In this document: in pieces, positions 3,011 through 14,476 of the stretch
How positions within the stretch are numbered: position 1 is the stretch's first letter
Layout of the letters: every line of letters starts with the position of its first letter
Translations under genes and position numbers: made by a program
Assembly (NCBI GenBank): GCA_018903055.1
Contig: JAHIPW010000105.1
Span: 1-14,476 of the forward strand
DNA from: DRGV01 sp018903055 [NCBI: bacterium]
GTDB taxonomy: Bacteria > UBP18 > UBA7526
Reading direction: 5' to 3'
Length of the DNA stretch: 14,476 nt
Notes under the pieces: generated by a model
What the model saw: the letters and a program-made list of their open reading frames with translations, nothing else
Told to the model about the DNA's origin: nothing
Database searches by the model: none

Positions 3011-3616
3011 TTAAGGCTCTTGTCTTCTTTCTGTGAGCCTCTTTATGGGAGGAATCTGTCTTATGATTACTACGGCAAAGAGGAGAAGGGTGAGGAAGAA
3101 TAATGGATGGGGCTCTTTGAATCTCATCCAGGTCAAAATAGGCATCAGGATATAGCCGACCATTGCTCCATAGGCCACAGTGGCTTTCCTTCTCTTCAAG
3201 ATAAGCCACGAGCCCAGGCCAACCGCTACAGCAATTAGGAAAACAATCCCGAATTCTTTAGGCAATAGGATAAGAAATGCACCCATGGTCGTCCCCAGAC
3301 CCATTCCTCCTCTGAATTGTAGAAATATCGGCCAGTTATGGCCCAAGATGACTGCCAGAACAACTAAAATTATAGGAGTATAATCGGGAAGAAAGAGCAC
3401 TTTTGCCAGATATACCGGGAGGACTGCCTTGCCAATATCCAAGAGGGCAACCAATGCCCCCCATTTAGGACCCAACTGCCTCCAGGCGCCGGCCACCCCT
3501 GGGTTATCATACTTCCTGATGTCGATCTTTTTTACCGTTCTACCCAAGATATAGGCCCAGTTTACAGAGCCTAATAAATAAGCAAGGATTATCATAAAGA
3601 TGGTTTTGACAATCAT
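3011..3616 (-). CDS. plsY: PlsY-like membrane acyltransferase, second of a tandem pair
   Basis: Polytopic membrane protein of 201 residues, the usual PlsY size. PlsY transfers an acyl group from acyl-phosphate to the sn-1 position of glycerol-3-phosphate, the first step of phospholipid synthesis. The family frame is clear: LLGSVNWAYILGR near the N-terminus, IDIRKYDNPG (31-40) with Arg46, and GHNWPIFLQFRGGMG (92-106). The canonical details are altered. The GSGN-GATN part of motif 1 is shortened and changed, the usual lysine after FxGG in motif 2 is Met105, and the C-terminal HRxNI-type motif 3 is not recognisable. It may be a variant acyltransferase or a partner of the neighbouring copy. Its ATG overlaps the upstream gene's TGA by 4 bases, and AAGGAG lies 5 bases before the start, so the two are translationally coupled. 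Confidence 0.8.
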   Translation of the reverse strand: MIVKTIFMIILAYLLGSVNWAYILGRTVKKIDIRKYDNPGVAGAWRQLGPKWGALVALLDIGKAVLPVYLAKVLFLPDYTPIILVVLAVILGHNWPIFLQFRGGMGLGTTMGAFLILLPKEFGIVFLIAVAVGLGSWLILKRRKATVAYGAMVGYILMPILTWMRFKEPHPLFFLTLLLFAVVIIRQIPPIKRLTERRQEP

Positions 3617-4266
3617 TTCTTCTCCTTAAGCGACGCCTTAATAATGGGAATAAGTTTTCGGGGGACGTTGAGGACCTGCCTTATGGCAGCCAAAAAGAGT
3701 AATAAGAGGCTTAAAATAAAGAGAGCATCAACATCAGGTCCATAGAAGGGCTTTACTAAAAAGGGGAGGAGTAATAGGGCAGCAGCTCCGCCACCTGGTG
3801 CAGTGGACTTGGCTTTCTTGAAGATGGGTAGTTTCCACATAATGAAGCCAGCCAGGATACCAAAGGGTAGAACGATGGCCAACGTCTTGGGCATAAGGCA
3901 GGCAAGTATTCCCACACCACAGGCTAAGCCTCCTCCGCCGCTGAACTTAAAGAATATGGGCCAGTTGTGACCAGCCACAGCGGCTACTGCCACAAAGACC
4001 ACTGGCCAATACTCGTAAGCAATAGGAGGATCAGAAAGAAACATCCTCATAGCAATTAGAGTGGGAATGGCCGCCTTGGCGGCATCTAAAAAACCGACCA
4101 GGAAAGCCCATTTCTTTCCCATGATGCGATATATCGTTCCCCCTCCCGGATTCCCATAATTCCGGATATCAATCCCTCTTACCATTTTGGCGATGATGTA
4201 GGCCCAGAGTAAGGAGCCCAATAGATAACTTCCCACAACCATCAGAATGACCTTGGTAATGAACAT
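3613..4266 (-). CDS. plsY: PlsY-like membrane acyltransferase, first of a tandem pair
   Basis: Paralogue of the following gene, 217 residues with several membrane segments. It shares the frame LLGSLLWAYIIAK, GIDIRNYGNPGGGTIYR (31-47) and GHNWPIFFKFSGGGG (99-113). The same places as in its neighbour differ from classical PlsY: two residues are missing between DIR and NPG, the motif-2 lysine is glycine (GGGG), and no clear HRxNI motif ends the protein. The conserved GHNWPIF segment shows the two copies are closer to each other than to textbook PlsY. A strong GAGGAGG ribosome-binding site precedes ATG 4266. The leader upstream holds the GTTACTA repeat array. A role in making acyl-glycerol-3-phosphate is inferred from the family and the FakA/DegV neighbours. 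Activity towards a different acceptor or donor is possible. Confidence 0.8.
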   Translation of the reverse strand: MFITKVILMVVGSYLLGSLLWAYIIAKMVRGIDIRNYGNPGGGTIYRIMGKKWAFLVGFLDAAKAAIPTLIAMRMFLSDPPIAYEYWPVVFVAVAAVAGHNWPIFFKFSGGGGLACGVGILACLMPKTLAIVLPFGILAGFIMWKLPIFKKAKSTAPGGGAAALLLLPFLVKPFYGPDVDALFILSLLLLFLAAIRQVLNVPRKLIPIIKASLKEKK

Positions 4267-4312
4267 CCTGCCTCCTCACTCTTTCACGGATTAGCGGGGG
4301 AAATAAGTAAAG

Positions 4313-4464
4313 GTTACTAGCAGTTACTAATAGTTACTAAACAGTTACTAAACAGTTACTAACAGTTACCACTGATTAGTATAAAAGCAACCGTTAGTAA
4401 CAGCGAAGCGTAGTAACCGATAGTAACAGTCCCAATCTTTTATTGGGACGTAGTAACCGTTACC
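4313..4464. repeat. GTTACTA array: phased direct copies, then inverted copies
   Basis: This is the 215-base gap between the degV-like gene and the plsY pair. GTTACTA occurs at 4313, 4323, 4333, 4344 and 4355, with a variant GTTACC at 4365, so copies start 10-11 bases apart, about one helical turn. The inverse TAGTAAC follows at 4395, 4411, 4421 and 4451. The two halves can pair into a large imperfect stem. The array lies just upstream of the plsY pair's ribosome-binding site, so it could be an operator array, a structured leader or merely an expanded repeat. A TATACT that could serve as a minus-strand -10 box falls between the halves, but no convincing -35 box was seen. Confidence 0.8.
4429..4449. 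other. 8-bp perfect hairpin inside the GTTACTA array
   Basis: GTCCCAAT and ATTGGGAC enclose the loop CTTTT. It lies about 30 bases past the degV-like stop codon. No T-run follows on the minus strand, so it is a weak candidate for an intrinsic terminator. It may instead be a cruciform or an mRNA-stability hairpin. Confidence 0.55.
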
Positions 4465-4481
4465 CTTCCTTCTAGTCCCTG

Positions 4482-5348
4482 CTACTTCACTAAGTAGTAT
4501 CCAATTCCCCAGCCGCCTGGTCCCAGGTGAACGATCTCACATCTCATCTTTCCTATAATGATCTCTTCGCAGTCTATATTCTTCTTTAACGCCTCTTTAA
4601 GTGCCTCTGTTGCTTCTGGATTATCACCCACATCGGCAATCAAGGCCTTAATCCTCTTGGCCCTAGACTTCTCCATATCAGCCTTTATGGTCTCGATCAT
4701 CTTCTGATTTGCCTGTTGGATATTCCTTCCTCTCCCCAATGGCTCTACAGTCTGTGTTCCATACCTCAAGATTGCTATGGGGATGACCTTCATCAAAGAG
4801 CCCAAGAGAGCCCTTGCCTTCCCTATCCTTCCTCCTCTATGGAGATATTCCAGGTTAGGGAGGGCCATGATGAGAGCGCTTCGAGAAGCAACCTCCTGGG
4901 CAATCTTGGCCACCTCATCCTTGCTCTTTCCTTCCCTGGCTGCCCGGGCAGCCTCTAAGACTGCTAATCCCATAGGATGGGCGATAAGCATAGTATTAAC
5001 CACAGTTACATCTGCTCCTTCTATCTTATTAGCTGCCTCCCTTGCTGCATCAACCGTGGGTTGGCTAAATATTCCTCCTGCTATGGTGATGTTCACAATG
5101 GACTTCCCTTCAGCCATTAATTTTCTATAGACTTCAGCAAACCTCTCAACGTTCATTGCTGCTGTCTTGGGGAAGCCTTTCGATGCTTTTACCTCTGTCA
5201 GGAAATCTTCTGGACTTATCGTCTCGCCAACCCGGTACTCCTTTCCCTCTAAAGTCACAGGGTGAAAGAGCATAGTTATCTCGAGTTCCTTCAAGAGATT
5301 ATCGGGTAACGCATTGGGACAACAAGTAACAATGGCAACCTTTGCCAT
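4482..5348 (-). CDS. DegV/FakB-family fatty-acid-binding protein, divergent
   Basis: DegV-family protein of 288 residues, the usual length. FakB members hold a fatty acid for phosphorylation by FakA and deliver the acyl-phosphate to PlsY. The fold is supported by the N-terminal AIVTCCPNALP strand, NITIAGGIFSQPT, LPNLEYLHRGGRIGKARALLGSLMKVIPI (about 163-191) and the closing VHLGPGGWGIGY. Arg174 of the GGRI motif, Thr62 and His274 remain where the family binds the carboxylate or phosphate. Other usual positions differ: VTDS is VTCC, TSQPS is TAAMN, and LSGT is replaced by IFSQP. The bound ligand may therefore not be an ordinary fatty acid. AAGGAG seven bases before ATG 5348 fixes the start. The gene follows the FakA-like kinase by 83 bases, the arrangement expected of a functional pair. 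Confidence 0.85.
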   Translation of the reverse strand: MAKVAIVTCCPNALPDNLLKELEITMLFHPVTLEGKEYRVGETISPEDFLTEVKASKGFPKTAAMNVERFAEVYRKLMAEGKSIVNITIAGGIFSQPTVDAAREAANKIEGADVTVVNTMLIAHPMGLAVLEAARAAREGKSKDEVAKIAQEVASRSALIMALPNLEYLHRGGRIGKARALLGSLMKVIPIAILRYGTQTVEPLGRGRNIQQANQKMIETIKADMEKSRAKRIKALIADVGDNPEATEALKEALKKNIDCEEIIIGKMRCEIVHLGPGGWGIGYYLVK

Positions 5349-5395
5349 CTTAAATCTCCTTAATAATTAGCTACAATCTTCAAGCTTCTTTTTAT

Positions 5396-5429
5396 AGCCT
5401 GTAGCCTGCGGCTTGTGGCCTGTGGCTTA
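5396..5429. repeat. Heptamer tandem repeat RGCYTGY, about five units
   Basis: Successive units AGCCTGT, AGCCTGC, GGCTTGT, GGCCTGT and GGCTTA run without interruption between the fakA-like stop codon and the degV-like gene. The period of seven is exact while the units have drifted. I see no promoter or terminator in the 83-base gap. Confidence 0.8.
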
Positions 5430-5431
5430 TT

Positions 5432-7288
5432 TTATTCTACTGAGATAATATAGTAATAATGCGGTTGTCCACCAAAGTATATTTGGACATCGAGGTTAGG
5501 ATACTTCTCTTTTACTTGACTTAATAATTGATTTGCTCTTTTCGTTCTCACTCCCCTACCATAGTAGAGGGTAATGATGCTGTCTCCCTCTTTTACCATC
5601 TCTTTGATCAAATCCAGGGCCACACTCTGGGGCTTTTTCCCTTTTACCTTTACTTCCTTACGATAGAGACCGATTATCTCTCCCTTTCTTATCTTAAACT
5701 CCCTATATTTTGCAATCCTTGCTGCCTTGGCCACCTGTCCGGTCTTTATTCTCCCCAATGCTTGATTCATAAACTCCTTATTCTCTTCTATGCCTGCCTC
5801 TGGATTATAATTCATTAAAGCAGCCAACCCCTGGGGAATACTCTTTGTGGAGACAACCTCTACCTTCTTCTTGCTCAACTCAGCCGCCTTCTCTGCTGCG
5901 GGAATGATATCCCCATCATTGGGCAGGAGAATAATATTCTTTGCCTCTGTTTCTTCTATTGTCTTACTTATATCCTCTACAGAGGGCTTCAACTTCTTTG
6001 GCCCTCCCAGTATTTCATCCGCTCCCATACTCTTCAGAATCTTACTCCATCCTTCTCCCGTAGATACCGCGATAATTCCTAATTCTTTAACCCTTACTGC
6101 TTCTCCTACCTCCTTCTCCATCAAGAGGGTCTGGTGCTGTTTATCCATATCATTTATCTTTACCTTATCTACCTCTCCTAAGGTAGCGGCATACTTTTTC
6201 ACCTTATCCGGCTCGTTGGTGTGAACGTGGCACTTGGCTAGTTCTTTCGAACCGACTACTATGGCACAGTCCCCATGCTTGGCTAACTCATCCTCAATCT
6301 TCTTTAAGGCTAAATCCTTTCCCTTGATCAGGAATTCTGTGCAGTACTTATACTTTATCTCCCTCTCCCAGGTATCAACCGCTTTCTGGGCAGTAGTTCT
6401 CACCGCCTTAATATCTAAGAGACCTCTTTTCTGAATAATTCCCAGGACCTTCTCCCAAGTTCCCACCACTCTCCTGGTACCAGTGGCACTCTTGAATTTC
6501 TGTAGGGGAAGGCAGGAAAGTCTTTTCTTCGCTGCCTGGATAGTCTTGCTGGCAATGGTCTCCACCTCTTTGATATCCCTCAGTTCCCCTCCCCGAATGC
6601 CAACCAAGATGCTTCGCCAGGCATTGACTGTCTTGGCAACCGTAACCTCAATCTTGGAGACCTCTTCCAATGGTTTGCCCTCTATGAGGCGAAGAGCTCC
6701 TTCTAAGATATAGACAAAGCCCGCTCCTCCGGCATCTACTACCCCAGCATCCTTTAATACGGGAAGCATCTCTGGGGTTTTTTCTAAAACTTCCTGTGCT
6801 TTTTTATGAGCCTCTCTCAAGACCTGGGCAATGTCTCTCTCTTCTCTTGCTATCTCTAAGGCTTTCTTTGCTGATTCCTGGGCCACGGTAAGTATCGTCC
6901 CTTCTATGGGCTCCCTTACCCCTTGATAAGCATTCTCTGCTCCCTTAAATAGTGCCTGGGCCAATTCCTTGGCCTCTACCCTCTTCTTCCCCTCAAGACC
7001 TTTGGCTAAACCTACCAGGAACTGAGAGAGAATTACTCCCGAACAGCCACGAGAAGCCATAATACTACTCTCGCCGGCGCCTTTGGCAATCGAAGAGAGA
7101 TCTCTATCCTTTAACTCCTTTGCGGTTTCAACCGCGGCCTTCAAAGTCAAGGACATATTGAATCCCGTATCCCCATCGGGAACGGGAAAGACATTCAGGT
7201 TATTGACCACCTCCATCTTGGAGGAAAGCCAATCATTGGAGGCAGATAAAGCCTTTATTAATCTTCTTCCATTACAATGCTTAATCAT
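5432..7288 (-). CDS. fakA: FakA/YloV-type fatty-acid kinase (DAK2 fusion) with insertion
   Basis: FakA phosphorylates a FakB-bound fatty acid to acyl-phosphate in the cytoplasm. The N-terminal DAK2 nucleotide domain (about 1-200) has NVFPVPDGDTGFNM, with Asp38 and Asp40 as metal ligands, RGCSGVILSQ, and VVDAGGAGF (183-191). The middle domain starts near YCTEFLIKG (305-323) and contains CHVHTNEP (353-360). In known FakA proteins one Cys and two His of this domain bind zinc, and Cys306, His354 and His356 would fit. The C-terminal domain fills about 400-618. At 618 residues it is some 65-70 longer than usual; the extra sequence lies at about 210-305 and contains two related copies (about 219-256 and 272-311, period 54) around VxxWxxxLxxI and LxDIKxVxT. 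GGAG lies seven bases before ATG 7288. The gene follows padR by 3 bases. Confidence 0.88.
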   Translation of the reverse strand: MIKHCNGRRLIKALSASNDWLSSKMEVVNNLNVFPVPDGDTGFNMSLTLKAAVETAKELKDRDLSSIAKGAGESSIMASRGCSGVILSQFLVGLAKGLEGKKRVEAKELAQALFKGAENAYQGVREPIEGTILTVAQESAKKALEIAREERDIAQVLREAHKKAQEVLEKTPEMLPVLKDAGVVDAGGAGFVYILEGALRLIEGKPLEEVSKIEVTVAKTVNAWRSILVGIRGGELRDIKEVETIASKTIQAAKKRLSCLPLQKFKSATGTRRVVGTWEKVLGIIQKRGLLDIKAVRTTAQKAVDTWEREIKYKYCTEFLIKGKDLALKKIEDELAKHGDCAIVVGSKELAKCHVHTNEPDKVKKYAATLGEVDKVKINDMDKQHQTLLMEKEVGEAVRVKELGIIAVSTGEGWSKILKSMGADEILGGPKKLKPSVEDISKTIEETEAKNIILLPNDGDIIPAAEKAAELSKKKVEVVSTKSIPQGLAALMNYNPEAGIEENKEFMNQALGRIKTGQVAKAARIAKYREFKIRKGEIIGLYRKEVKVKGKKPQSVALDLIKEMVKEGDSIITLYYGRGVRTKRANQLLSQVKEKYPNLDVQIYFGGQPHYYYIISVE

Positions 7289-7291
7289 TCT

Positions 7292-7837
7292 TCACTCCGC
7301 CTTGGCCGCCGCCTCCTTCTTGGTCAAGGTTCTAATAAGCTGGGAGGTAAATTTAATCTCTGCCTTAGTCAGTTCCAGATTATGCTGGATAATGGTCTGT
7401 AGGTGATGGGGGGTGTTCTTCTCTTTTAAAGATTTGCCCATATTCTCAAGCCATATCTTCACCCCTCCCAAACCACGCAGACGAGTACGGAGTCGGGCGA
7501 GAACCATTCGGGGCTTAATGCGGGGAGAGAAGTAGAGACAGAGGTCAATGTTTAGGAACGGTCTTTCAAGAATAAGGAAGCTCCTGCGCAGTAATTCTTG
7601 AAATTTTCCGCTCCCCTTCTTCGTTATGTGATAGATGTACTTCTCCGGCCTTCTGCCTGCGCGAGAGACCCTCTTGGCTACAAGCCCCTCTTTTTCCATC
7701 TGTCTTAAGGAATAGTAGATGGACTTAGTTTTTATGCTGGTGAAGGTCTCTATAATCTTGGTAATCAACCTCTTGATCTCATAGCCATGCTTTGGTCCTT
7801 CTTCTAATAGTCCCAGAAGAACGAGTTCCTGAGTCAT
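7292..7837 (-). CDS. PadR-family transcriptional regulator
   Basis: Small DNA-binding regulator of 181 residues. The N-terminal winged helix is typical of PadR: ELVLLGLLEEGPKHGYEIKRLI, then SIYYSLRQMEKEGLVAKR, then GRRPEKYIYHITKKG for the wing (about 3-75). The C-terminal half (about 85-180) is charged and helical, as in PadR proteins with a longer dimerisation domain. Most relatives are repressors controlled by a small ligand. It lies three bases from both acpS and fakA, so it most likely controls the lipid block it belongs to, with a lipid or acyl compound as possible ligand; that is inference from context. GAGGAG inside the end of acpS serves as its ribosome-binding site. No obvious palindromic operator was identified. 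Confidence 0.88.
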   Translation of the reverse strand: MTQELVLLGLLEEGPKHGYEIKRLITKIIETFTSIKTKSIYYSLRQMEKEGLVAKRVSRAGRRPEKYIYHITKKGSGKFQELLRRSFLILERPFLNIDLCLYFSPRIKPRMVLARLRTRLRGLGGVKIWLENMGKSLKEKNTPHHLQTIIQHNLELTKAEIKFTSQLIRTLTKKEAAAKAE

Positions 7838-7840
7838 TTT

Positions 7841-8230
7841 TTAACTCCTCTTTAATAAATTTTGCGCAAGCAGTGCTTGGGCCAATACCATATTGCCATT
7901 TACAGAGAATGTTAGCCTTATTTTTTTATTAAGGTTGCGTTCTCTTATGTAGATTAGGGGATCTTTCGTAATATTTCGGATAGAAATATCCTTCCAATCA
8001 AGGTGGGCTTTAGAGCAGGCCTTAAATATTGCTTCCTTAGAGGCGATGTAACAGCTCAGTCTTTGAAAAAAATGAAGGTTTTCCTTTAGAGGCAAATCCC
8101 GCCCCTGCGCACAGGAGCGGGATAAATCCTTAATCTCCCCGTCATTCAAAATCTTCCTTAAAAATAATATACCATGTTTCCGGTAGATACTTTTAATTTG
8201 ATTTATATCCACCAGATCTATACCTAACAT
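7841..8230 (-). CDS. acpS: Holo-[acyl-carrier-protein] synthase, divergent
   Basis: AcpS transfers 4'-phosphopantetheine from CoA to the serine of acyl carrier protein. The 129-residue length is normal. GIDLVDINQIKSIYRKHG at the N-terminus carries the Mg-binding Asp (Asp5 in GIDLVDI), and YIASKEAIFKACSKAHLDWKDISI (about 61-84) has the second metal residue, Glu66, in the family's AAKEA motif (here ASKEA). The C-terminal SISHD stretch is degenerate (TFSVNGNMVLAQALLA), which is uncommon. The gene heads the padR-fakA group and adds an acyl-carrier link to this lipid block. ATG 8230 is preceded by an AG-rich AGAGAG stretch. A fused or alternative carrier-protein specificity is possible. Confidence 0.85.
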   Translation of the reverse strand: MLGIDLVDINQIKSIYRKHGILFLRKILNDGEIKDLSRSCAQGRDLPLKENLHFFQRLSCYIASKEAIFKACSKAHLDWKDISIRNITKDPLIYIRERNLNKKIRLTFSVNGNMVLAQALLAQNLLKRS

Positions 8231-8251
8231 CTTTTTCTCTCTCTTTTTATC

Positions 8252-8290
8252 ATCTGTGTAATCTGCTTAAAATCTGTGTAATCTGTGTTA
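8252..8290. repeat. ATCTGTGTA short tandem repeat, four units
   Basis: Units ATCTGTGTA, ATCTGCTTAAA, ATCTGTGTA and ATCTGTGTTA fill the 60-base gap between the aldehyde dehydrogenase stop and acpS. I see no T-rich terminator after the dehydrogenase, so readthrough into acpS is plausible. Confidence 0.75.
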
Positions 8291-9727
8291 CTAAAGCGCA
8301 TACCATTGGCTTACTAAAGGTTTCTCGCCAGATAAATGGTAATTGATGTGCTTAAGACGGGTATATTCCAAAAAGCCCTCTTTGCCTAATTCTTTACCAA
8401 AACCACTCTCTTTAAAGCCACCATAGGGCGCTTCGTTATAAAACATACCATAAGTGTTAATCCATACTGTTCCGGCATCAATCTTTTTACTTAAATTCTT
8501 TGCCCTTTCTAAATCCTTACTCCAGATAGAGCAGGCTAAACCAAAAGAGCTATCATTGGCGAGTCTAAGGGCCTCTTCTTCTTGTGAAAATTCAGTGATG
8601 CAGACTACGGGTCCGAAAATCTCTTCCTGAAAAATGGTCATTTCAGGCCTCACTTGCCCAAAAGCCGTGGGCTCAAAGAAAAATCCCTTCTTTAATTCTG
8701 GCTCATCAGGAATTCTTCCTCCACAGAGAATCTTTGCCCCCTCTTTTCTTCCCTTTTCTACGTAAGAGATAACCTTCTGACGATGCTCGTGAGAGATCAA
8801 GGGTCCCATCTGGGTCTCAGGATCTAAGCCATCGCCTAATTTTATCTTTTTTGCCTTCTCCACAAATTGTTCGCTAAATTGTTTGGCTATCTTCTTATCT
8901 ACCAATATTCTGGACATGGCGGTGCACATCTGCCCCTGGTTAAGAAATATCGAAGTGAGAGCCCCCATCACCGCGGTCTCCAGGTCGCAGTCGGCTAAAA
9001 CGATACTGGCTGATTTCCCACCCAACTCCATAATCAACTTCTTGGTACTCTCAGAAGCAAAACGCATAATCTCTCTGCCTGTTGAGGTGCTACCAGTAAA
9101 GGAAATCATATCTACCCGGGGATCGGAACATAGAACAGGGCCAATTTCCGCTCCCGAGGCATTGATAACATTCACCACGCCCTGGGGCAGGCCGGCATCA
9201 TTGATAATCTCGGCCAGTCTTAAGGCGGTTAAGGGGGTAAGGGATGAGGGCTTAAGAATCACTGTGTTTCCTGCTGCCAGGGCCTGAGCCATTTTCCAGG
9301 AAGCGATTAGAAGGGGATAATTCCAGGGGACAATCAGAGCCACTACTCCCCGAGGCTCATAAAGGAGTTGACTTTCCGCCCCAGAATCTAATTCTATCTT
9401 TTTGCTCTTCAGGTAAGGCTCTAAATTATTGGCAAAGTATTCAAAGGTTTTGGCGCTGGATGGAATATCCATAAAGGTCGACTCTTTTAGGGGCTTGCCG
9501 GTATTTTCTGTCTCCAGTCGAGCTAATTCTTGGGCCTTATCCAGAATTCCCTGGGAAACATTCAGAAGGAGATTTCTTCGCTCGGCCAAAGAGATTTTGG
9601 GCCAGGCTCCTTCATCAAAGGCCTTTTGCGCCGCTGTAACGGCTCTCTCTATATTCTCTTTATCCACCCGAGGAACTTCGGCTATAGTCTGGCCTGTTGC
9701 AGGATTAATAACATTTTTCTTCCTCAT
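8291..9727 (-). CDS. NAD(P)-dependent aldehyde dehydrogenase
   Basis: Full-length member (478 residues) of the aldehyde dehydrogenase superfamily, nearest in style to betaine-aldehyde and general aldehyde dehydrogenases. It would oxidise an aldehyde to its acid in the cytoplasm. Visible hallmarks are VPWNYP (133-138), cofactor-binding KPSS (159-162), FTGSTSTG (210-217), the general base Glu234 in MELGGKS, the nucleophile Cys268 in GQMCTA, EEIFGPV (368-374) and the PYGGFKESGFG anchor (434-444). Catalytic residues are intact. It is the last gene of the nucleoside-salvage operon, its ATG overlapping the aldolase's TGA by 4 bases. The likely substrate is therefore the aldehyde released by that aldolase: acetaldehyde from 5'-deoxyadenosine or methylthioacetaldehyde from methylthioadenosine. 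That assignment is inferred from context. Confidence 0.93.
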   Translation of the reverse strand: MRKKNVINPATGQTIAEVPRVDKENIERAVTAAQKAFDEGAWPKISLAERRNLLLNVSQGILDKAQELARLETENTGKPLKESTFMDIPSSAKTFEYFANNLEPYLKSKKIELDSGAESQLLYEPRGVVALIVPWNYPLLIASWKMAQALAAGNTVILKPSSLTPLTALRLAEIINDAGLPQGVVNVINASGAEIGPVLCSDPRVDMISFTGSTSTGREIMRFASESTKKLIMELGGKSASIVLADCDLETAVMGALTSIFLNQGQMCTAMSRILVDKKIAKQFSEQFVEKAKKIKLGDGLDPETQMGPLISHEHRQKVISYVEKGRKEGAKILCGGRIPDEPELKKGFFFEPTAFGQVRPEMTIFQEEIFGPVVCITEFSQEEEALRLANDSSFGLACSIWSKDLERAKNLSKKIDAGTVWINTYGMFYNEAPYGGFKESGFGKELGKEGFLEYTRLKHINYHLSGEKPLVSQWYAL

Positions 9728-10725
9728 TCTATCCTCATCTCTTTAAATAGGGAGAACATGCGAGAGAAAGGCACATACCAGCGGGAGAGTCTTCCTAAGT
9801 CACCCTTTAATTTTAACTTTCCCTGAGTGGTAGCCACAAAGGGATCGAGTTTCCCCTCAAAGATTAATCTCCAGACATCAGCCGGGCCAGAAATGACAAA
9901 GGGGGCATCATCGTTGTATTCCACCTTAATAATCTTTCCTTTCCGGAAATTAAATTTATAGGCCTTGTCTTTCTCTTCATCTATCTTAATGACTACCTGG
10001 GCTGTCAGATTCAGCTCCTTTGCTTTGGTCAAAAATTTCTCATCCTCATTAATTAAGTCTACAATGGCCAGGATATGCTCTCGGGTAAACATAGGATAGA
10101 TTTTTCCTGTGCGGCGCAAGCTTTTCTTGAGCTCCTGCTCAAATTTATTGGGCCTCTTCTTGGCAAAGAGGCGGGCCAGTCCGGCCATCTTCACTGCCTC
10201 TTCCAGTTCCTCAATTAGATAGAAGGCATCATCGAACCTATCTGCCATAGAGACTATACCATGATTCCTAATAACCACTATATTATTGGTCTTTAAGGCC
10301 TCTATAACCTTCTCCGGCTGAGTCACGCTGGGCGTGGTCTGGGTAACCTGCGGCACCTCGCCCAGAAACAACTTATTTTCAAAGGTTATATTCTCCAGCT
10401 CATCATAAACAGCATAATAGGCATTGACCAAAGGGGGATGGCAGTGAATTATCCTTTGCATCGGAAAATTTTTGTAGATTAAGCTGTGCAGGGGGAACTC
10501 TGTGGTCAGGCCCGAAACTTTTTCTCCTGCCTCGGAAGAGAGGTCAACCTTCAGAACATCTTCTTCTCTCAATTCTCCCAAACAGGTACCGCTTGAGGTT
10601 ATCAGAATTAAGTTGCCCTCTATCCGGGCACTTAAGTTGCCCCCTTTAGCGGCTACCAAACGAAAATCATAGAGCTTCTTTCCGATTTTAATAATCTCTT
10701 CTTTTAACTGCACTTCTTTAGTCAT
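9724..10725 (-). CDS. Class II aldolase fused to an SCP2-like domain
   Basis: Two-part protein of 333 residues. Residues 1 to about 200 are a class II (zinc) aldolase of the fuculose-phosphate type: AAKGGNLSARI, ITSSGTCLG, catalytic Glu76 in TTEFPLH, zinc ligands His94 and His96 in IHCHPPLVNAYY, and His155 in VIRNHGIVS. These positions match the order and spacing in FucA. Residues from about 230 to the end look like a sterol-carrier-protein-2 domain: hydrophobic strands with alternating charge, GPADVWRLIFEGKLDP (280-295) and TTQGKLKLKGDL (299-310). The linked aldolase would split a 5-deoxy- or 5-methylthio-ribulose-1-phosphate into DHAP and an aldehyde. A dehydratase of the MtnB type shares this fold and is the main alternative, but the adjacent aldehyde dehydrogenase favours an aldolase. 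The SCP2 half suggests handling of a hydrophobic molecule. The gene lies 2 bases from the isomerase gene and overlaps the dehydrogenase gene. Confidence 0.87.
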   Translation of the reverse strand: MTKEVQLKEEIIKIGKKLYDFRLVAAKGGNLSARIEGNLILITSSGTCLGELREEDVLKVDLSSEAGEKVSGLTTEFPLHSLIYKNFPMQRIIHCHPPLVNAYYAVYDELENITFENKLFLGEVPQVTQTTPSVTQPEKVIEALKTNNIVVIRNHGIVSMADRFDDAFYLIEELEEAVKMAGLARLFAKKRPNKFEQELKKSLRRTGKIYPMFTREHILAIVDLINEDEKFLTKAKELNLTAQVVIKIDEEKDKAYKFNFRKGKIIKVEYNDDAPFVISGPADVWRLIFEGKLDPFVATTQGKLKLKGDLGRLSRWYVPFSRMFSLFKEMRIE

Positions 10726-10727
10726 CT

Positions 10728-11693
10728 CTACAGACCCAGGGTAATGTGTTTACTGATTAACTTATGGGGGGTGATATCAAAGGCGGGATAGAATCCCTTT
10801 GCCCCCTTTGGGGCAATTCTCTTTCCCCAAAATTCCAACAATTCTTCACCCGCTCTTACTTCTATCTTGATATCCTTCCCTGTTTTGGCACCAGACGGTG
10901 GTGGCGAGAGAACATAAAAGGGAAGATTAAAATGTCGGGCTAAAAGAGCAATTTGATAGGTGCCTATTTTATTGGCGATGTCTCCATTTTGGGCTTTCTG
11001 GTCTGCACCAACCACAACCAAACCCACTAATCCTTTAGACATCACATAAGCCACGGAACTATCCGGAATAATGGTTACCTTAAAGCGGGCTCTCTGCAAC
11101 TCCCAGGCAGTAAGCCGTGAACCTTGAAGATAGGGCCGGGTTTCAGTAACAAAGAATCTTATTTTCTTTTTTGTCTTGCGACAAAATTGGGCCGCCAGGA
11201 CTAAAGAGCCGCTGACATTACAGTGAGTGAGAATGCTATCTCTGTCTTTTATTAAGCGGCTCAAGGCCCGGGCCTGGGCAATTCGTTTTTCTTTAAGGTA
11301 AGAAAGAAATGTTTTAATTCTATTTTCAGTAAAGGCCGGGATATCTTTCCCTTTCTTCTTAGCCTCTCCTGCCCAGACTAAGACCATCTCAGTAAAAAAG
11401 GAGAAAGGGAAGGTTGGTCGGCTTCTATTTATTTCCAGGGCAGCCTTTTTTAAAACCTTAATCTGTCTTTCTGGTTTTAGCTCTTTACTTTTCTTAAGAA
11501 GGAGCAAGAAAATATGGTAGGCCATCAATACCTGGCCAAAGGCCCGGGTCTTCATACTTTTGATAAGATTTATTGCCTGGTTGAGATTTCTTGCCTTAAG
11601 ATAGATTAATTCTTGAGGAAGGGCGGTCTCATCCAGGCAGAGAATGGTATTACTCTTCAGACTAACTGGCCAGAAAAGTGGCGATTCTCTCAT
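10728..11693 (-). CDS. mtnA: MtnA-like aldose-1-phosphate isomerase (eIF-2B family)
   Basis: Member (321 residues) of the family holding methylthioribose-1-phosphate isomerase, 5-deoxyribose-1-phosphate isomerase and eIF-2B subunits. It converts a cyclic pentose-1-phosphate to the ketose. Catalytic and substrate motifs are well kept: THCNVSG with Cys158, ETRPYLQGSRLTAWEL (184-199), VGADQKAQNGDIANKIGTY with the catalytic Asp231 (228-246), and RIAPKG followed by PAFDITPHKLI. Two places are unusual. The N-terminal MxVRGAPAIG motif is reduced to MKTRAFGQVL, and the Arg of GADRI is Gln. The substrate may therefore differ from methylthioribose-1-phosphate. GGAGG four bases before ATG 11693 fixes the start, which overlaps the phosphorylase stop by 4 bases. 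It would pass the phosphorylase product to the aldolase. Confidence 0.87.
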   Translation of the reverse strand: MRESPLFWPVSLKSNTILCLDETALPQELIYLKARNLNQAINLIKSMKTRAFGQVLMAYHIFLLLLKKSKELKPERQIKVLKKAALEINRSRPTFPFSFFTEMVLVWAGEAKKKGKDIPAFTENRIKTFLSYLKEKRIAQARALSRLIKDRDSILTHCNVSGSLVLAAQFCRKTKKKIRFFVTETRPYLQGSRLTAWELQRARFKVTIIPDSSVAYVMSKGLVGLVVVGADQKAQNGDIANKIGTYQIALLARHFNLPFYVLSPPPSGAKTGKDIKIEVRAGEELLEFWGKRIAPKGAKGFYPAFDITPHKLISKHITLGL

Positions 11694-12439
11694 TTTCCCT
11701 CCAATATCTTTACGGCCTCTAAAGCCACATTAATCAAGGTAGTCTGGGCAATATAAAAAGCAGGATTGGTAAAACCCATCTCGCCCGTCATTACATTATC
11801 ACTGACAGCAAGGATAGAAGCGGCCTTTACCTTATACATCTGAGCAATGGTTAAAAGTGTGGAGGAGACCATATCCACAGCAATTGCTCCGGCATCAGCC
11901 TTCTCTTCAACCAGCTCCTTTGTCTCCCTTAAAAGGGCATCGGTTGACCAGACTTTCCCTTTATGCACTTTAACCCCTAATTTCTCTGCCGCTTTTTCCA
12001 AGGCTCTGGTAATTTCGGCATCAGGAAGGGTCTGAAACTTCTCATCTACATAATGGGGGGTGACCCCGTCTCCCCTTATTACACCCGTGGCTAAAATTAA
12101 ATCTCCCACCTTTATCTCTTCCCGCAGAGCGCCACAGGAGCCCAGGCGGATCAAATTTTCTGCCTGGACATTGCAGATAATCTCGGTGGTAATGGCGGTA
12201 TTGGCTGAAAACATCCCTCCGTTCATGGCAGTAACCTTTATGCCCTCATATTCGCCAGTATACATGGTATGTTCCATAAAAGAGAAGTTCTTCAGAGGGT
12301 TTTTTATTCTCTTAACCAGGGCCTCTAACCGGTCTGGCGTTCCAGGCATAATTACATATTTAGCTATATCCTGGGGCCGCAGCTGAACCATGGCCGCCAA
12401 ATCTTTTCCCGTCAGATGAATCGGTTTTCGCATGGGCAT
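11690..12439 (-). CDS. Nucleoside phosphorylase (PNP/UDP family 1)
   Basis: Hexameric-type nucleoside phosphorylase of 249 residues. It would cleave a nucleoside with phosphate to base plus (deoxy)ribose-1-phosphate. Motifs in order: MPGTPDR (31-37) for phosphate binding, NGGMFSANTAITTEII (73-88), RLGSCGAL (98-105), DGVTPHY, and the general-acid region AVSDN with Asp214. The usual MxxME motif that contacts the ribose hydroxyls is here VDMVSST (188-194), with Val191 where the family has a near-invariant Glu. Ribose recognition is thus probably altered. The order phosphorylase-isomerase-aldolase suggests 5'-deoxyadenosine or methylthioadenosine as substrate, though a uridine or purine nucleoside is not excluded. 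AAGGAG about 8 bases before ATG 12439 supports this start over the ATG at 12433. The amidohydrolase ends 3 bases upstream. Confidence 0.87.
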   Translation of the reverse strand: MPMRKPIHLTGKDLAAMVQLRPQDIAKYVIMPGTPDRLEALVKRIKNPLKNFSFMEHTMYTGEYEGIKVTAMNGGMFSANTAITTEIICNVQAENLIRLGSCGALREEIKVGDLILATGVIRGDGVTPHYVDEKFQTLPDAEITRALEKAAEKLGVKVHKGKVWSTDALLRETKELVEEKADAGAIAVDMVSSTLLTIAQMYKVKAASILAVSDNVMTGEMGFTNPAFYIAQTTLINVALEAVKILEGK

Positions 12440-12442
12440 TTT

Positions 12443-13363
12443 TTATTCTCCTTCCCCAAACAGATTCATCAAATTCCCGCCAAGTATGCTTTCCTTCTCT
12501 CCGTCCTCAATATTCAAATCCTTGAGGACCTCTATACTTTCAGTCAAACCTTTTTTGGCCGGAAAATCAGAGCCCCACAATATTCTGTCTGGACCAAAAA
12601 AGTCTAAAGCCATATTGAGCAGGGAGGCTGATTTTGCACCGCTGGTATCTACAAAGATATTTCTTAAAATAGCTGAAGGCAGACTCCCTAAATCTTTAAC
12701 CATCTCTCTTGCCCGCAACATCAAGTAAGTGGAATCGAAGCGATCGCCCAAAAATGGCAGCACCCCAGCAAAATGGGCAAAAATAATCTTTAGATTTTTA
12801 AGCTGGCTCAATCTGCCGGACATCATCAACTTACCGGCACACATAGTAATATCAAAGGGATACTCCACAACCGGCATCAAAAGAGGGTCTCTTATCCTCT
12901 CAAAACCGATGGGGTTGATGATCTGGGAATGTACAAAGATAGGGAGTTTCTCTCTCTCCGCCTTTTCTAATACGGGAAGAAAACTCTCATCATCTAAAAA
13001 TCTTCCCTCATAGCTTGAGGCTAAAGAGAGACAGGATAATCCCAATTCTCTTATCCTTTCAACCTCTCTCACCATATCTTTTGGCCGATCCACAGGCAGA
13101 ATACCTGCGCCCATAAGTCGCTCCGGATGGCGCTTTACCTGTTTAGAGATTTCCTCATTGTAAAGAGCGCATACCTTTGACCACCCGCCCATTTTCAGGT
13201 GAGCATCTGAGGTGGGATAAAGCAAGACCGCCTTTTCTATACCCGACTTATCCAGCGTATTTAATAGCAGGTCAATATCTGACCACCCTCTTTTAAAAAA
13301 AGAGGTATACTTTGCTACTCCAGGTGGAATCCAATGGCTATGAGCATCCCATATTTTTGTCAT
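12443..13363 (-). CDS. ACMSD-like amidohydrolase (amidohydrolase family 2)
   Basis: TIM-barrel metal enzyme of 306 residues in the family of aminocarboxymuconate-semialdehyde decarboxylase and related hydrolases and decarboxylases. Metal ligands are visible: His8 and His10 in DAHSHW, His145 in IFVHSQI, His197 in IIFAHFAGVLPFLGDRFD, and Asp266 in ILWGSDFP. The terminal GGNLMNLFGEG matches the family's GxNAxRLF ending. The reaction could be a non-oxidative decarboxylation or a C-N/C-O hydrolysis; the sequence does not decide. I chose ATG 13363, 12 codons inside the longest frame, because it gives a 4-base ATGA overlap with the radical SAM stop and places DAHSHW at the usual distance from the N-terminus. 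It is coupled to the phosphorylase (3-base gap). A role in the same pathway is inferred; no substrate is proposed with confidence. Confidence 0.87.
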   Translation of the reverse strand: MTKIWDAHSHWIPPGVAKYTSFFKRGWSDIDLLLNTLDKSGIEKAVLLYPTSDAHLKMGGWSKVCALYNEEISKQVKRHPERLMGAGILPVDRPKDMVREVERIRELGLSCLSLASSYEGRFLDDESFLPVLEKAEREKLPIFVHSQIINPIGFERIRDPLLMPVVEYPFDITMCAGKLMMSGRLSQLKNLKIIFAHFAGVLPFLGDRFDSTYLMLRAREMVKDLGSLPSAILRNIFVDTSGAKSASLLNMALDFFGPDRILWGSDFPAKKGLTESIEVLKDLNIEDGEKESILGGNLMNLFGEGE

Positions 13364-14476
13364 ACGTGTAATTTTCCTTCCATTGCTCCGGCTTCCCATC
13401 GGGGAACATTATTCATTACATCCTGAAAACAAAGTTTAGCCAGAGGGTCAAAGTTGCTTTCTAATATGCGGTGGATCCTTCCTGGTTTACTGAAAAATTC
13501 CCTCATACACCAGGCGCCCAGCCTTCCTAAATCTCCGATAGAAAGGTATTTGGTGGGAACTACCGGATGTAAGAAGTCCCATTTTAAGATATCGATATTT
13601 TTGGGGTCCACCCATCCCCTCTTTACGGCATCTGTCCATAGCGGTGATCCCGGTGGAGGAGTGAGATACCCAATCCAAAGTATATCCGGATCAACCTTAT
13701 CGGCAAAGGCAAATCTGTCTTTAATAATCTGCTCGGTATCATAGTCAAAGCCAATCATTATGTCACCCACAATGGCGATGTCATTGCTACGCAAAATCTC
13801 GATGGTTTTATATATCTGCTCAATGGTTACGCCTTTGGCCAGATTTCTTAACTCCTGATCGCTGGCTACCTCTATGCCAAATACTCCAATAAACATCCCG
13901 GCCTTCTTCATTAAGGGAATGTCTTTTTCTGCTCTCACCCAGTCGCTGGCACAACCAAGACTAACCCACTTCATATTCAGGCCCCGCTTCAACTTCTCCT
14001 CACAGAACTCTCTTGCCCTTTTCCCGTTGACATTAAAGTTATCCTCTTGAATGACGATAACCTTAACCCCAAACTTCTTTTCCAACAGCTCCACTTCATC
14101 GACCACGCGCTTAGCCGACTTGGCCCGCCACTTATTAAAGTGTTTTAGGGCTCGGGGGTCGTGTTCGCTCCACTCATAGCAGAAGGTACAGCCGTGCGGG
14201 CAGCCGCGTGAGGTAACAATTTCCATAAAGGGCTTCCAATAAGTATGTCCTACATATTTTTCCATGGGAAATAGGTCGTATGCTGGAAGGGGCAGGGCAT
14301 CCAGATCAGGGATAAGCTCGCGCACCGGCCCAAAGACTACCTTTCCCTTCTCTCGGGAAGCCAGTCCGGAAATCTCCTTAAAGTTAGTCTTGCCTCTATT
14401 CAAGGCATCCATTAAATCGTTAAAGGTCAATTCGCCTTCGCCCATCACCACGAAGTCTATGGCGGGATTCTGCTCA
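13360..14476 (-). CDS. B12-binding-type radical SAM protein (N-terminus outside window)
   Basis: C-terminal part of a radical SAM enzyme. The frame stays open to the right edge. Its first visible residues read ENPAIDFVVMGEGELT-like (EQNPAIDFVVMGEGE), the usual end of a cobalamin-binding domain, followed by LPLPAYDLFP and then the [4Fe-4S] motif CPHGCTFC (codons at about 14179-14202). A GTG at 14451 would be only an internal start. Further barrel features are VIVIQEDNFNVNGKRAREFCEE, a GIEVASDQELRNLAKG segment and GDIMIGFDYDTEQ. Such class-B enzymes methylate or rearrange substrates, forming 5'-deoxyadenosine and often S-adenosylhomocysteine. It appears to be the upstream gene of the salvage operon within this window, overlapping the amidohydrolase by 4 bases, and could supply the nucleoside that the phosphorylase consumes. 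The substrate cannot be predicted. Confidence 0.88.
   Translation of the reverse strand, partial: EQNPAIDFVVMGEGELTFNDLMDALNRGKTNFKEISGLASREKGKVVFGPVRELIPDLDALPLPAYDLFPMEKYVGHTYWKPFMEIVTSRGCPHGCTFCYEWSEHDPRALKHFNKWRAKSAKRVVDEVELLEKKFGVKVIVIQEDNFNVNGKRAREFCEEKLKRGLNMKWVSLGCASDWVRAEKDIPLMKKAGMFIGVFGIEVASDQELRNLAKGVTIEQIYKTIEILRSNDIAIVGDIMIGFDYDTEQIIKDRFAFADKVDPDILWIGYLTPPPGSPLWTDAVKRGWVDPKNIDILKWDFLHPVVPTKYLSIGDLGRLGAWCMREFFSKPGRIHRILESNFDPLAKLCFQDVMNNVPRWEAGAMEGKLHV

Follow-up and report, generated by a model that had tools for sequence, protein, structure and literature searches.

An aldolase–SCP2 fusion protein in a nucleoside-salvage-style operon associated with an uncharacterised KS/CLF gene cluster

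Enzymes with a C-terminal sterol carrier protein 2 (SCP2) domain include SCPx, a thiolase–SCP2 protein, and peroxisomal multifunctional enzyme 2; the partners in these eukaryotic proteins are thiolase or hydratase/dehydrogenase domains, not aldolases. Here we describe a gene joining a class II aldolase to an SCP2 domain, at 9724..10725 on the minus strand of contig JAHIPW010000105.1 (assembly GCA_018903055.1, DRGV01 sp018903055, GTDB lineage UBP18), whose 14,476 nucleotides were analysed as a whole and are called the window below. Among described pathways, the fluorometabolite pathway of Streptomyces leads from 5'-fluoro-5'-deoxyadenosine to fluoroacetate through a purine nucleoside phosphorylase (PNP), an MtnA-type isomerase, a class II aldolase and then an aldehyde dehydrogenase (ALDH); to our knowledge it involves neither an SCP2 domain nor a ketosynthase/chain length factor (KS/CLF) cluster.

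The dihydroxyacetone phosphate (DHAP) shunt converts 5'-deoxyadenosine or 5'-methylthioadenosine (MTA) to DHAP and an aldehyde (PMC10986504, PMC6079011). Its aldolases, Ald2 and DrdA, share with the fusion the class II fold and an operon containing an MtnA-like isomerase and a nucleoside phosphorylase, and the catalytic glutamate of DrdA is also numbered Glu76 (PMC6079011). They are described there with a single aldolase domain, whereas the fusion has an SCP2 domain, an attached ALDH gene and a polyketide synthase (PKS)/lipid cluster in which the PNP and MtnA sites are altered. FucA has the same fold (2flf) and the same metal and catalytic residues, but identity in the fold comparison is only ~20–27%, no fucose genes were seen beside the fusion, and the NCBIfam L-fuculose-1-phosphate aldolase equivalogs score far below cut-off (FucA_Meth 89.3 against 250, PRK06833 62.6 against 264). 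Arabidopsis DEP1 likewise joins an enzyme with the class II aldolase fold, here one of methylthioribulose-1-phosphate metabolism, to a second domain, but its partner is a HAD phosphatase and it acts in methionine salvage (PMC6079011). Type II PKS clusters outside Actinobacteria resemble the surroundings of the fusion in having a KS-alpha with Cys-His-His, a KS-beta without them, an acyl carrier protein (ACP), an SRPBCC protein and a cyclase; unlike those surroundings, they are not associated with a nucleoside-to-aldehyde branch or an aldolase–SCP2 protein in the available portions of PMC10132072. A first-pass annotation of the window, made from its letters, was aware of no characterised aldolase with an SCP2 partner, and our literature searches, in the texts accessible to them, likewise found no published account of one.

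The fusion gene encodes 333 aa from an ATG start (coordinates include the stop codon). Pfam places Aldolase_II (PF00596) on residues 9–180 (E 4.8e-35; 121.5 bits against a cut-off of 22.2) and SCP2 (PF02036) on residues 235–311 (E 1.4e-7; 32.2 bits against 21.3). C-terminal domains taken from 20 of 69 aligned fusion proteins all match Pfam SCP2 (20/20, E up to 0.01), and a profile built from these 20 matches solved SCP2 structures (2cx7, E 5e-6; 1wfr, E 6.7e-6); names of SCPx and multifunctional enzyme 2 appear among its weak PDB matches (E 0.06 and 0.93). Profile searches therefore confirm the combination of a class II aldolase with an SCP2 domain that the first-pass annotation had proposed, including its suggested match of the C-terminal part to the SCP2 family. 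The aldolase domain occupies approximately residues 1–199 (10129..10725, minus strand) and the conserved SCP2 domain approximately residues 211–333 (9727..10095, minus strand); at ~123 aa, the latter is slightly longer than the ~105 residues first assigned to it. Across the alignment, which comprises proteins of at least 300 aa including that of the window, Glu76, His94, His96 and His155 are invariant (69/69), as are eleven SCP2-domain residues (F258, G263, F276, F289, F296, A298, Q301, G308, W316, Y317 and F324). These four residues, the catalytic Glu and three metal-binding His, had been correctly read in the first-pass annotation, which took the enzyme for a zinc aldolase; zinc is only a candidate metal, and the characterised analogue DrdA prefers Mn (PMC6079011).

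The aldolase domain gives a good predicted model, whose fold is close to Thermus FucA (2flf; Z 24.9, root-mean-square deviation 1.8 Å over 182 residues) and to DrdA (6btg; Z 23.1). For the SCP2 half, AlphaFold confidence is low, with residues 237–333 below 50 on the predicted local distance difference test (pLDDT) in the full model and a mean of 44.6 for the isolated domain, probably due to the input of only three fusion sequences. Because the C-terminal half gave no usable model, its assignment to SCP2 rests on sequence profiles. None of the NCBIfam aldolase models listed for the fusion reaches its cut-off (best PRK08660, 113.2 against 203), and no Ald2/DrdA model is among the 25 shown of 30 matches.

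Searches across genomes showed the fusion to be recurrent in one phylum. No other full fusion was found in a 145-genome sample, in which only the window's own genome had one place spanning both domains, nor in five relatives from the window's phylum (completeness 53–93%). Among plasmids, 46 records match, always over less than 80% of the query; viral contigs scanned twice with fusion alignments gave nothing, as did single-protein scans of viral contigs and of genome contigs. Scanning genome contigs with a small aldolase alignment recovered two fusions among 80 loci kept, both in Candidatus Omnitrophota records (locus L073, 75%; L074, 55%; here and below L, G and C numbers denote loci, genomes and contigs). 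L074 comes from G146, and in the phylum of that genome 195/384 sampled genomes give a match, of which 48 with weaker matches only, their extent not examined, were counted as having no fusion. After span and neighbourhood checks the fusion was counted in 141/384 genomes of this Omnitrophota-labelled phylum, including G428, G490, G353 and G492, where the match spans the aldolase part only and neighbourhood evidence was used, and G386, where the fusion is split over two contig ends. As it recurs in 141/384 genomes of another phylum, the fusion is not a chance product, and the idea of a fusion unique to the window's genome and working in a plain DHAP shunt was dropped once this search had found it elsewhere. 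The first-pass annotation had allowed that the architecture might prove common and already described; it is common in one phylum, which that annotation overlooked along with the operon discussed below, and the accessible literature yielded no description.

In the window, eight closely packed minus-strand genes run from 7292 to 14451, in the transcription order radical SAM enzyme, amidohydrolase, PNP, MtnA-like isomerase, aldolase–SCP2 fusion, ALDH, phosphopantetheinyl transferase and PadR regulator. The junctions from PNP through isomerase and fusion to ALDH are overlaps or gaps of 2–4 bases. Immediately upstream of the fusion are the PNP-like gene (11690..12439; Pfam, NCBIfam, alignment) and the MtnA-like isomerase gene of the IF-2B family (10728..11693; Pfam, NCBIfam, alignment), and downstream lies the ALDH gene (8291..9727; Pfam, NCBIfam), whose start overlaps the fusion stop by 4 bases. 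The fusion is thus encoded with MtnA-like and phosphorylase-like genes at 10728–12439, both below equivalog cut-offs, and the order PNP, isomerase, aldolase is that of DHAP shunt chemistry. Together with the ALDH gene, this operon points to a nucleoside-derived substrate of the 5-deoxyribulose-1-phosphate type.

Both partner enzymes have unusual sites. The isomerase scores 215.6 against the MtnA equivalog cut-off of 279 but passes the broader TIGR00524 (195.9 against 185.85); it retains Cys158 and Asp231 in 66/66 cluster members, and its stretch from the catalytic Cys to ETRP is 26 residues in 66/66, against 33 in 1t9k, and so 7 residues shorter. The window PNP lies below every curated NCBIfam cut-off listed, and the E-M-E motif of four PDB alignments, its best structural relatives, is D-M-V in 59/59 cluster PNPs, while Asp214, aligned with the purine-specific Asp, is kept in 59/59. 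His8, which we take to correspond to the residue contacting the 5'-OH in UP/DeoD, is kept in 56/59. The altered sites would fit a different or larger substrate without proving one. The window's genome holds another MtnA-like gene on contig C185. Between the MtnA-like and fusion genes, 24/78 loci encode a short IF-2B-like protein of ~150–180 aa (e.g. L198:9205-9660 and L203:8905-9378), possibly a partner subunit of the isomerase.

The wider neighbourhood was read in 79 loci, many of them cut by contig ends, and four 1-kb stretches (L221–L224) were left out. A fusion-family gene was called in 78; in the remaining one, L255, an over-long ALDH frame displaced the fusion in gene calling. Among the 78, seven genes have no SCP2 domain, and G423 and G386 each contribute two contigs. 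Using profiles built on the first 23 loci, with domain names taken from one or two members each, the most frequent same-strand neighbours are MtnA (66/78), ALDH (66), PNP (58), an AMP ligase (50), radical SAM (48), a PF04199 cyclase (43), amidohydrolase (39), KS-beta (39), ACP (37), SRPBCC (34), a short-chain dehydrogenase/reductase (SDR; 32) and KS-alpha (31). In L155, a KS-alpha with Cys-His-His stands with a KS-beta without them (read by eye) and an ACP, the combination that characterises a type II PKS. The radical SAM protein of this locus has a B12-binding domain and matches BchE best in NCBIfam (210 bits, cut-off 481). For the AMP ligase of the cluster, the best NCBIfam match, to a long-chain fatty acid CoA ligase model, is also below cut-off (428.7 bits against 476). 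A 91-aa neighbour considered as a PCP_red domain was not confirmed as such, Pfam giving only a sub-threshold DUF2621 match. KS–CLF pairs have been recorded for Candidatus Omnitrophica (PMC10132072) and 'ladderane' clusters without known function for Omnitrophota metagenome-assembled genomes (PMC9902471), either of which might be the cluster described here.

Two further gene sets accompany the fusion in some loci. An alcohol dehydrogenase (ADH) and a DeoC/LacD-type gene lie on the same strand 1–7 genes from the fusion in 9/78 loci, and the one DeoC/LacD-type member scanned, that of L191, scores 370.8 bits with the LsrF model NF006081, above its cut-off of 297. The named substrate of LsrF is 3-hydroxy-5-phosphonooxypentane-2,4-dione, which would be 5-deoxyribulose 1-phosphate oxidised at C4. 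Judged from structure formulae, the LsrF-type genes are therefore an independent pointer to a substrate of the 5-deoxyribulose 1-phosphate type, and aldolase plus ALDH plus ligase on the one hand and ADH plus LsrF on the other may be two routes from one substrate to DHAP and an acyl thioester. An export-like set with MMPL and LolA-like genes was found near the fusion by profile in 3/79 loci (L185, L204 and L213), two of which also have a DUF1302 protein; domains were checked for L185 and L204. A similar set appears in L294 by open reading frame (ORF) reading and in L293 by ORF sizes only. In L185 the MMPL/LolA-like genes come after ALDH, ACPS and ligase, and in L204, L293 and L294 radical SAM, AMP ligase, PNP, MtnA, fusion and an MMPL/LolA-like/outer-membrane-like set occur nearby, with no KS in the stretch examined and no KS-beta in the genome at the threshold used. 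As a separate observation, a stand-alone SCP2 protein adjoins the fusion in L193 (G436:C62:6225-6617), 48% identical to the C-terminal part of the fusion.

Presence of the SCP2 domain follows presence of the PKS. KS-beta was scored as present where the best E was 3.0e-106 or lower, and G480 (4.2e-96), with a fragment of 60% identity, was counted as well. On this basis it is found in 130/141 fusion genomes; 11/141 lack it, 9/139 KS-beta genomes lack the fusion, and 234/384 genomes have neither. In six genomes with a close SCP2-less aldolase, KS-beta is found in 0/6. A search of all frames in the stretches examined, around the aldolases of these six genomes and around the G423 gene without SCP2, gave no SCP2 domain. 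On the aldolase-domain tree the SCP2-less proteins fall within the fusion clade (ingroup support 97): L206 groups with L155 (support 99), L207, L210, L211 and L216 form a group (99), L205 joins L236 with a support of only 63, and L212 stands separate, meeting the four-member group only at a 49-tip node (66). Parsimony on this tree requires 4 changes from the root state 'fusion'. Because 6/6 SCP2-less genomes have no KS-beta and their proteins nest within the fusion clade, the SCP2 domain was apparently lost together with the PKS. The SCP2-less gene of G423 stands beside a PKS cluster (L212) and was not counted as a loss with PKS, since G423 also has a full fusion on another contig (L213) and KS-beta.

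Taken together, we propose that the fusion is a DHAP-shunt-type aldolase working in a type II PKS/lipid cluster, where it would cleave a 5-substituted 5-deoxyribulose 1-phosphate whose hydrophobic chain is held by the SCP2 domain. The PNP would strip adenine from a 5'-substituted 5'-deoxyadenosine to give 5-R-5-deoxyribose 1-phosphate, the MtnA-like enzyme would isomerise this to 5-R-5-deoxyribulose 1-phosphate, and the aldolase domain would split the product into DHAP and an aldehyde, R-CH2-CHO, which ALDH and the AMP ligase of the cluster could turn into an acyl thioester. The SCP2 domain, at the end of the aldolase chain, might hold a hydrophobic chain, either R itself or a polyketide or lipid partner, while the phosphorylated head reaches the metal site. 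Aldol cleavage is probably the reaction type, the aldolase step being supported by genomic context; the lipid-bearing substrate is something we infer, and to the proposal as a whole we give about an even chance. The first-pass annotation, having suggested a hydrophobic substrate or product, is partly supported here: such a compound is plausible, and context strengthens the idea (the KS/CLF–ACP cluster, SRPBCC, cyclase, AMP ligase and, in a few loci, the export-like set). The FakA-like, DegV and PlsY genes of the window add to this lipid setting.

Several observations weigh against this proposal. The isomerase and PNP scores fall below equivalog cut-offs, so the exact substrates are not fixed, and the retention of His8 in the PNP, provided that this residue does contact the 5'-OH, argues against a large 5' substituent. 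No known 5'-deoxyadenosyl-attaching radical SAM enzyme was seen in the cluster, the radical SAM protein being below every NCBIfam cut-off listed. Lipid binding by the SCP2 domain, and a pocket for it, are suppositions. The KS-less loci L204, L293 and L294 show that the PKS is not obligatory for the fusion, and the genomes with only one of fusion and KS-beta point the same way; the association between the two is strong, as counted without correction for shared ancestry or incomplete genomes, and its Fisher values likewise take no account of ancestry.

A serious possibility, if not a probable one, is that the operon salvages plain 5'-deoxyadenosine (R = H) or MTA, clearing the by-product of the cluster's own radical SAM enzyme and returning acetyl units and DHAP, with the SCP2 domain only docking the aldolase to polyketide or lipid machinery or to the membrane. 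The DHAP shunt has a known variant that uses a phosphorylase (PMC10986504), DrdA disposes of 5-deoxyribose derived from radical SAM enzymes (PMC6079011), radical SAM genes are neighbours in 48/78 loci, and the named substrate of LsrF is the R = H compound. Yet the cluster has dedicated PNP and MtnA copies with altered sites although the genome keeps another mtnA-like gene, and nothing in such salvage needs an SCP2 domain, which is absent along with KS-beta from all six aldolase-only genomes. The aldolase might instead run in the opposite direction, joining DHAP to an SCP2-held aldehyde derived from a polyketide or lipid, after which the isomerase and PNP would provide a lipid with its sugar or nucleoside head group. 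Thermodynamics would favour this, with equilibrium constants for cleavage of ~1e-4 (PMC6079011), and the export-like genes in a few loci would suit it, but the adjoining ALDH and AMP ligase look suited to consuming an aldehyde, not to providing one, and the ADH/LsrF-type pair of nine loci would be thiolytic and cleaving; we regard this reverse route as improbable. That the SCP2 domain is a ligand-free structural or oligomerisation add-on to an ordinary sugar-phosphate aldolase seems highly improbable: its ligand is conjectural and its models are of low confidence (pLDDT below 50), but its eleven invariant residues and the fact that, of the seven SCP2-less genes, only the second copy of G423 comes from a KS-beta genome both argue otherwise.

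A bolder form of the proposed chain-bearing cleavage, tentative and in our view rather unlikely, would have the cluster lengthen a lipid or polyketide by two carbons through the ribose of S-adenosylmethionine (SAM). A 5'-deoxyadenosyl unit joined to a hydrophobic chain would pass through PNP and isomerase to a chain-bearing ribulose 1-phosphate, which the aldolase–SCP2 protein would cleave to DHAP and a chain with a new CH2-CHO end, to be converted to an acyl thioester by ALDH and ligase or by ADH and LsrF. Should the SCP2 domain indeed bind a sugar phosphate that bears a lipid, carbon from the ribose of SAM would be entering lipids or polyketides by a route not recognised so far. Should it serve for docking only, the system is still a clean and testable one for asking why an aldolase that is soluble in water requires a lipid-binding domain, given that SCP2 is repeatedly missing where the PKS is missing. 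Either way, a nucleoside-salvage-style pathway is tied to a KS/CLF cluster that is conserved, has yet to be characterised and occurs in roughly one third of the sampled genomes of the Omnitrophota phylum (139/384 by KS-beta, 141 by fusion), a cluster apparently shared with another phylum by transfer.

The window's own genome (G000) carries KS-beta and KS-alpha on a different contig, C18, with PanE-like, TIGR04076-like, cyclase and SRPBCC genes; the contig breaks off within an MFS gene, and gene calling gave no ACP on C18. In G219, cyclase, SRPBCC and MFS continue into SDR, radical SAM, amidohydrolase, PNP, MtnA, fusion, ALDH and ACPS; in G148 the same three are followed by SDR and radical SAM. 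Since this gene order joins the two, the simplest reading is that C18 and the window are fragments of a single cluster. Identities of cluster genes to those of G148 and G219 are 55–89% (the fusion is 80% identical to the G148 gene), and the window groups with L185 (G148), L073 and L186 (G219) on the aldolase tree (support 68). The 80% identity to a gene of another phylum, together with the lack of a fusion in the five phylum relatives, suggested a mis-binned contig, which was ruled out for the window by tetranucleotide composition (r 0.946 with its own bin, against 0.645 for G148 and 0.770 for G219), the bin sample being ten G000 contigs, among them C10, which is masked to N and yielded no value by itself yet was pooled; without C10 the window's r is 0.959. 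For C18 the profile is less clear (0.855 against 0.763). From the 55–89% identities, the lack of a fusion in the five phylum relatives, the agreement of the window with its own bin and its place on the aldolase tree, we infer horizontal transfer, in either direction.

The remaining genes of the minus-strand run in the window also belong to or adjoin the cluster. At the contig end, a truncated radical SAM gene (13360..14451) has a full-length relative in L155, the one that carries a B12-binding domain, and is followed by the Amidohydro_2 gene (12443..13399; Pfam), a conserved cluster member found as a same-strand neighbour in 39/78 loci. Downstream of ALDH are a 4'-phosphopantetheinyl transferase gene of the ACPS family (7841..8230; Pfam), 55–57% identical to its counterparts in L185 and L186, and a PadR-family regulator gene adjoining the cluster (7292..7837; Pfam), with a same-strand PadR gene in 17/78 loci.

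Further ketosynthase-like genes occur in G000 outside the cluster, on contigs C11 and C169 (L286, L288), two of them side by side on C169. Elsewhere in the window, an ORF of 81 aa at 1791–2036 presumably corresponds to the first part of a UvrA-type ABC ATPase; since it ends early, it may be a broken gene or an assembly error. Directly downstream of the cluster, positions 3011–7288 encode a FakA-like fatty acid kinase, a DegV-family protein and, in adjacent genes, two PlsY-type acyltransferases.

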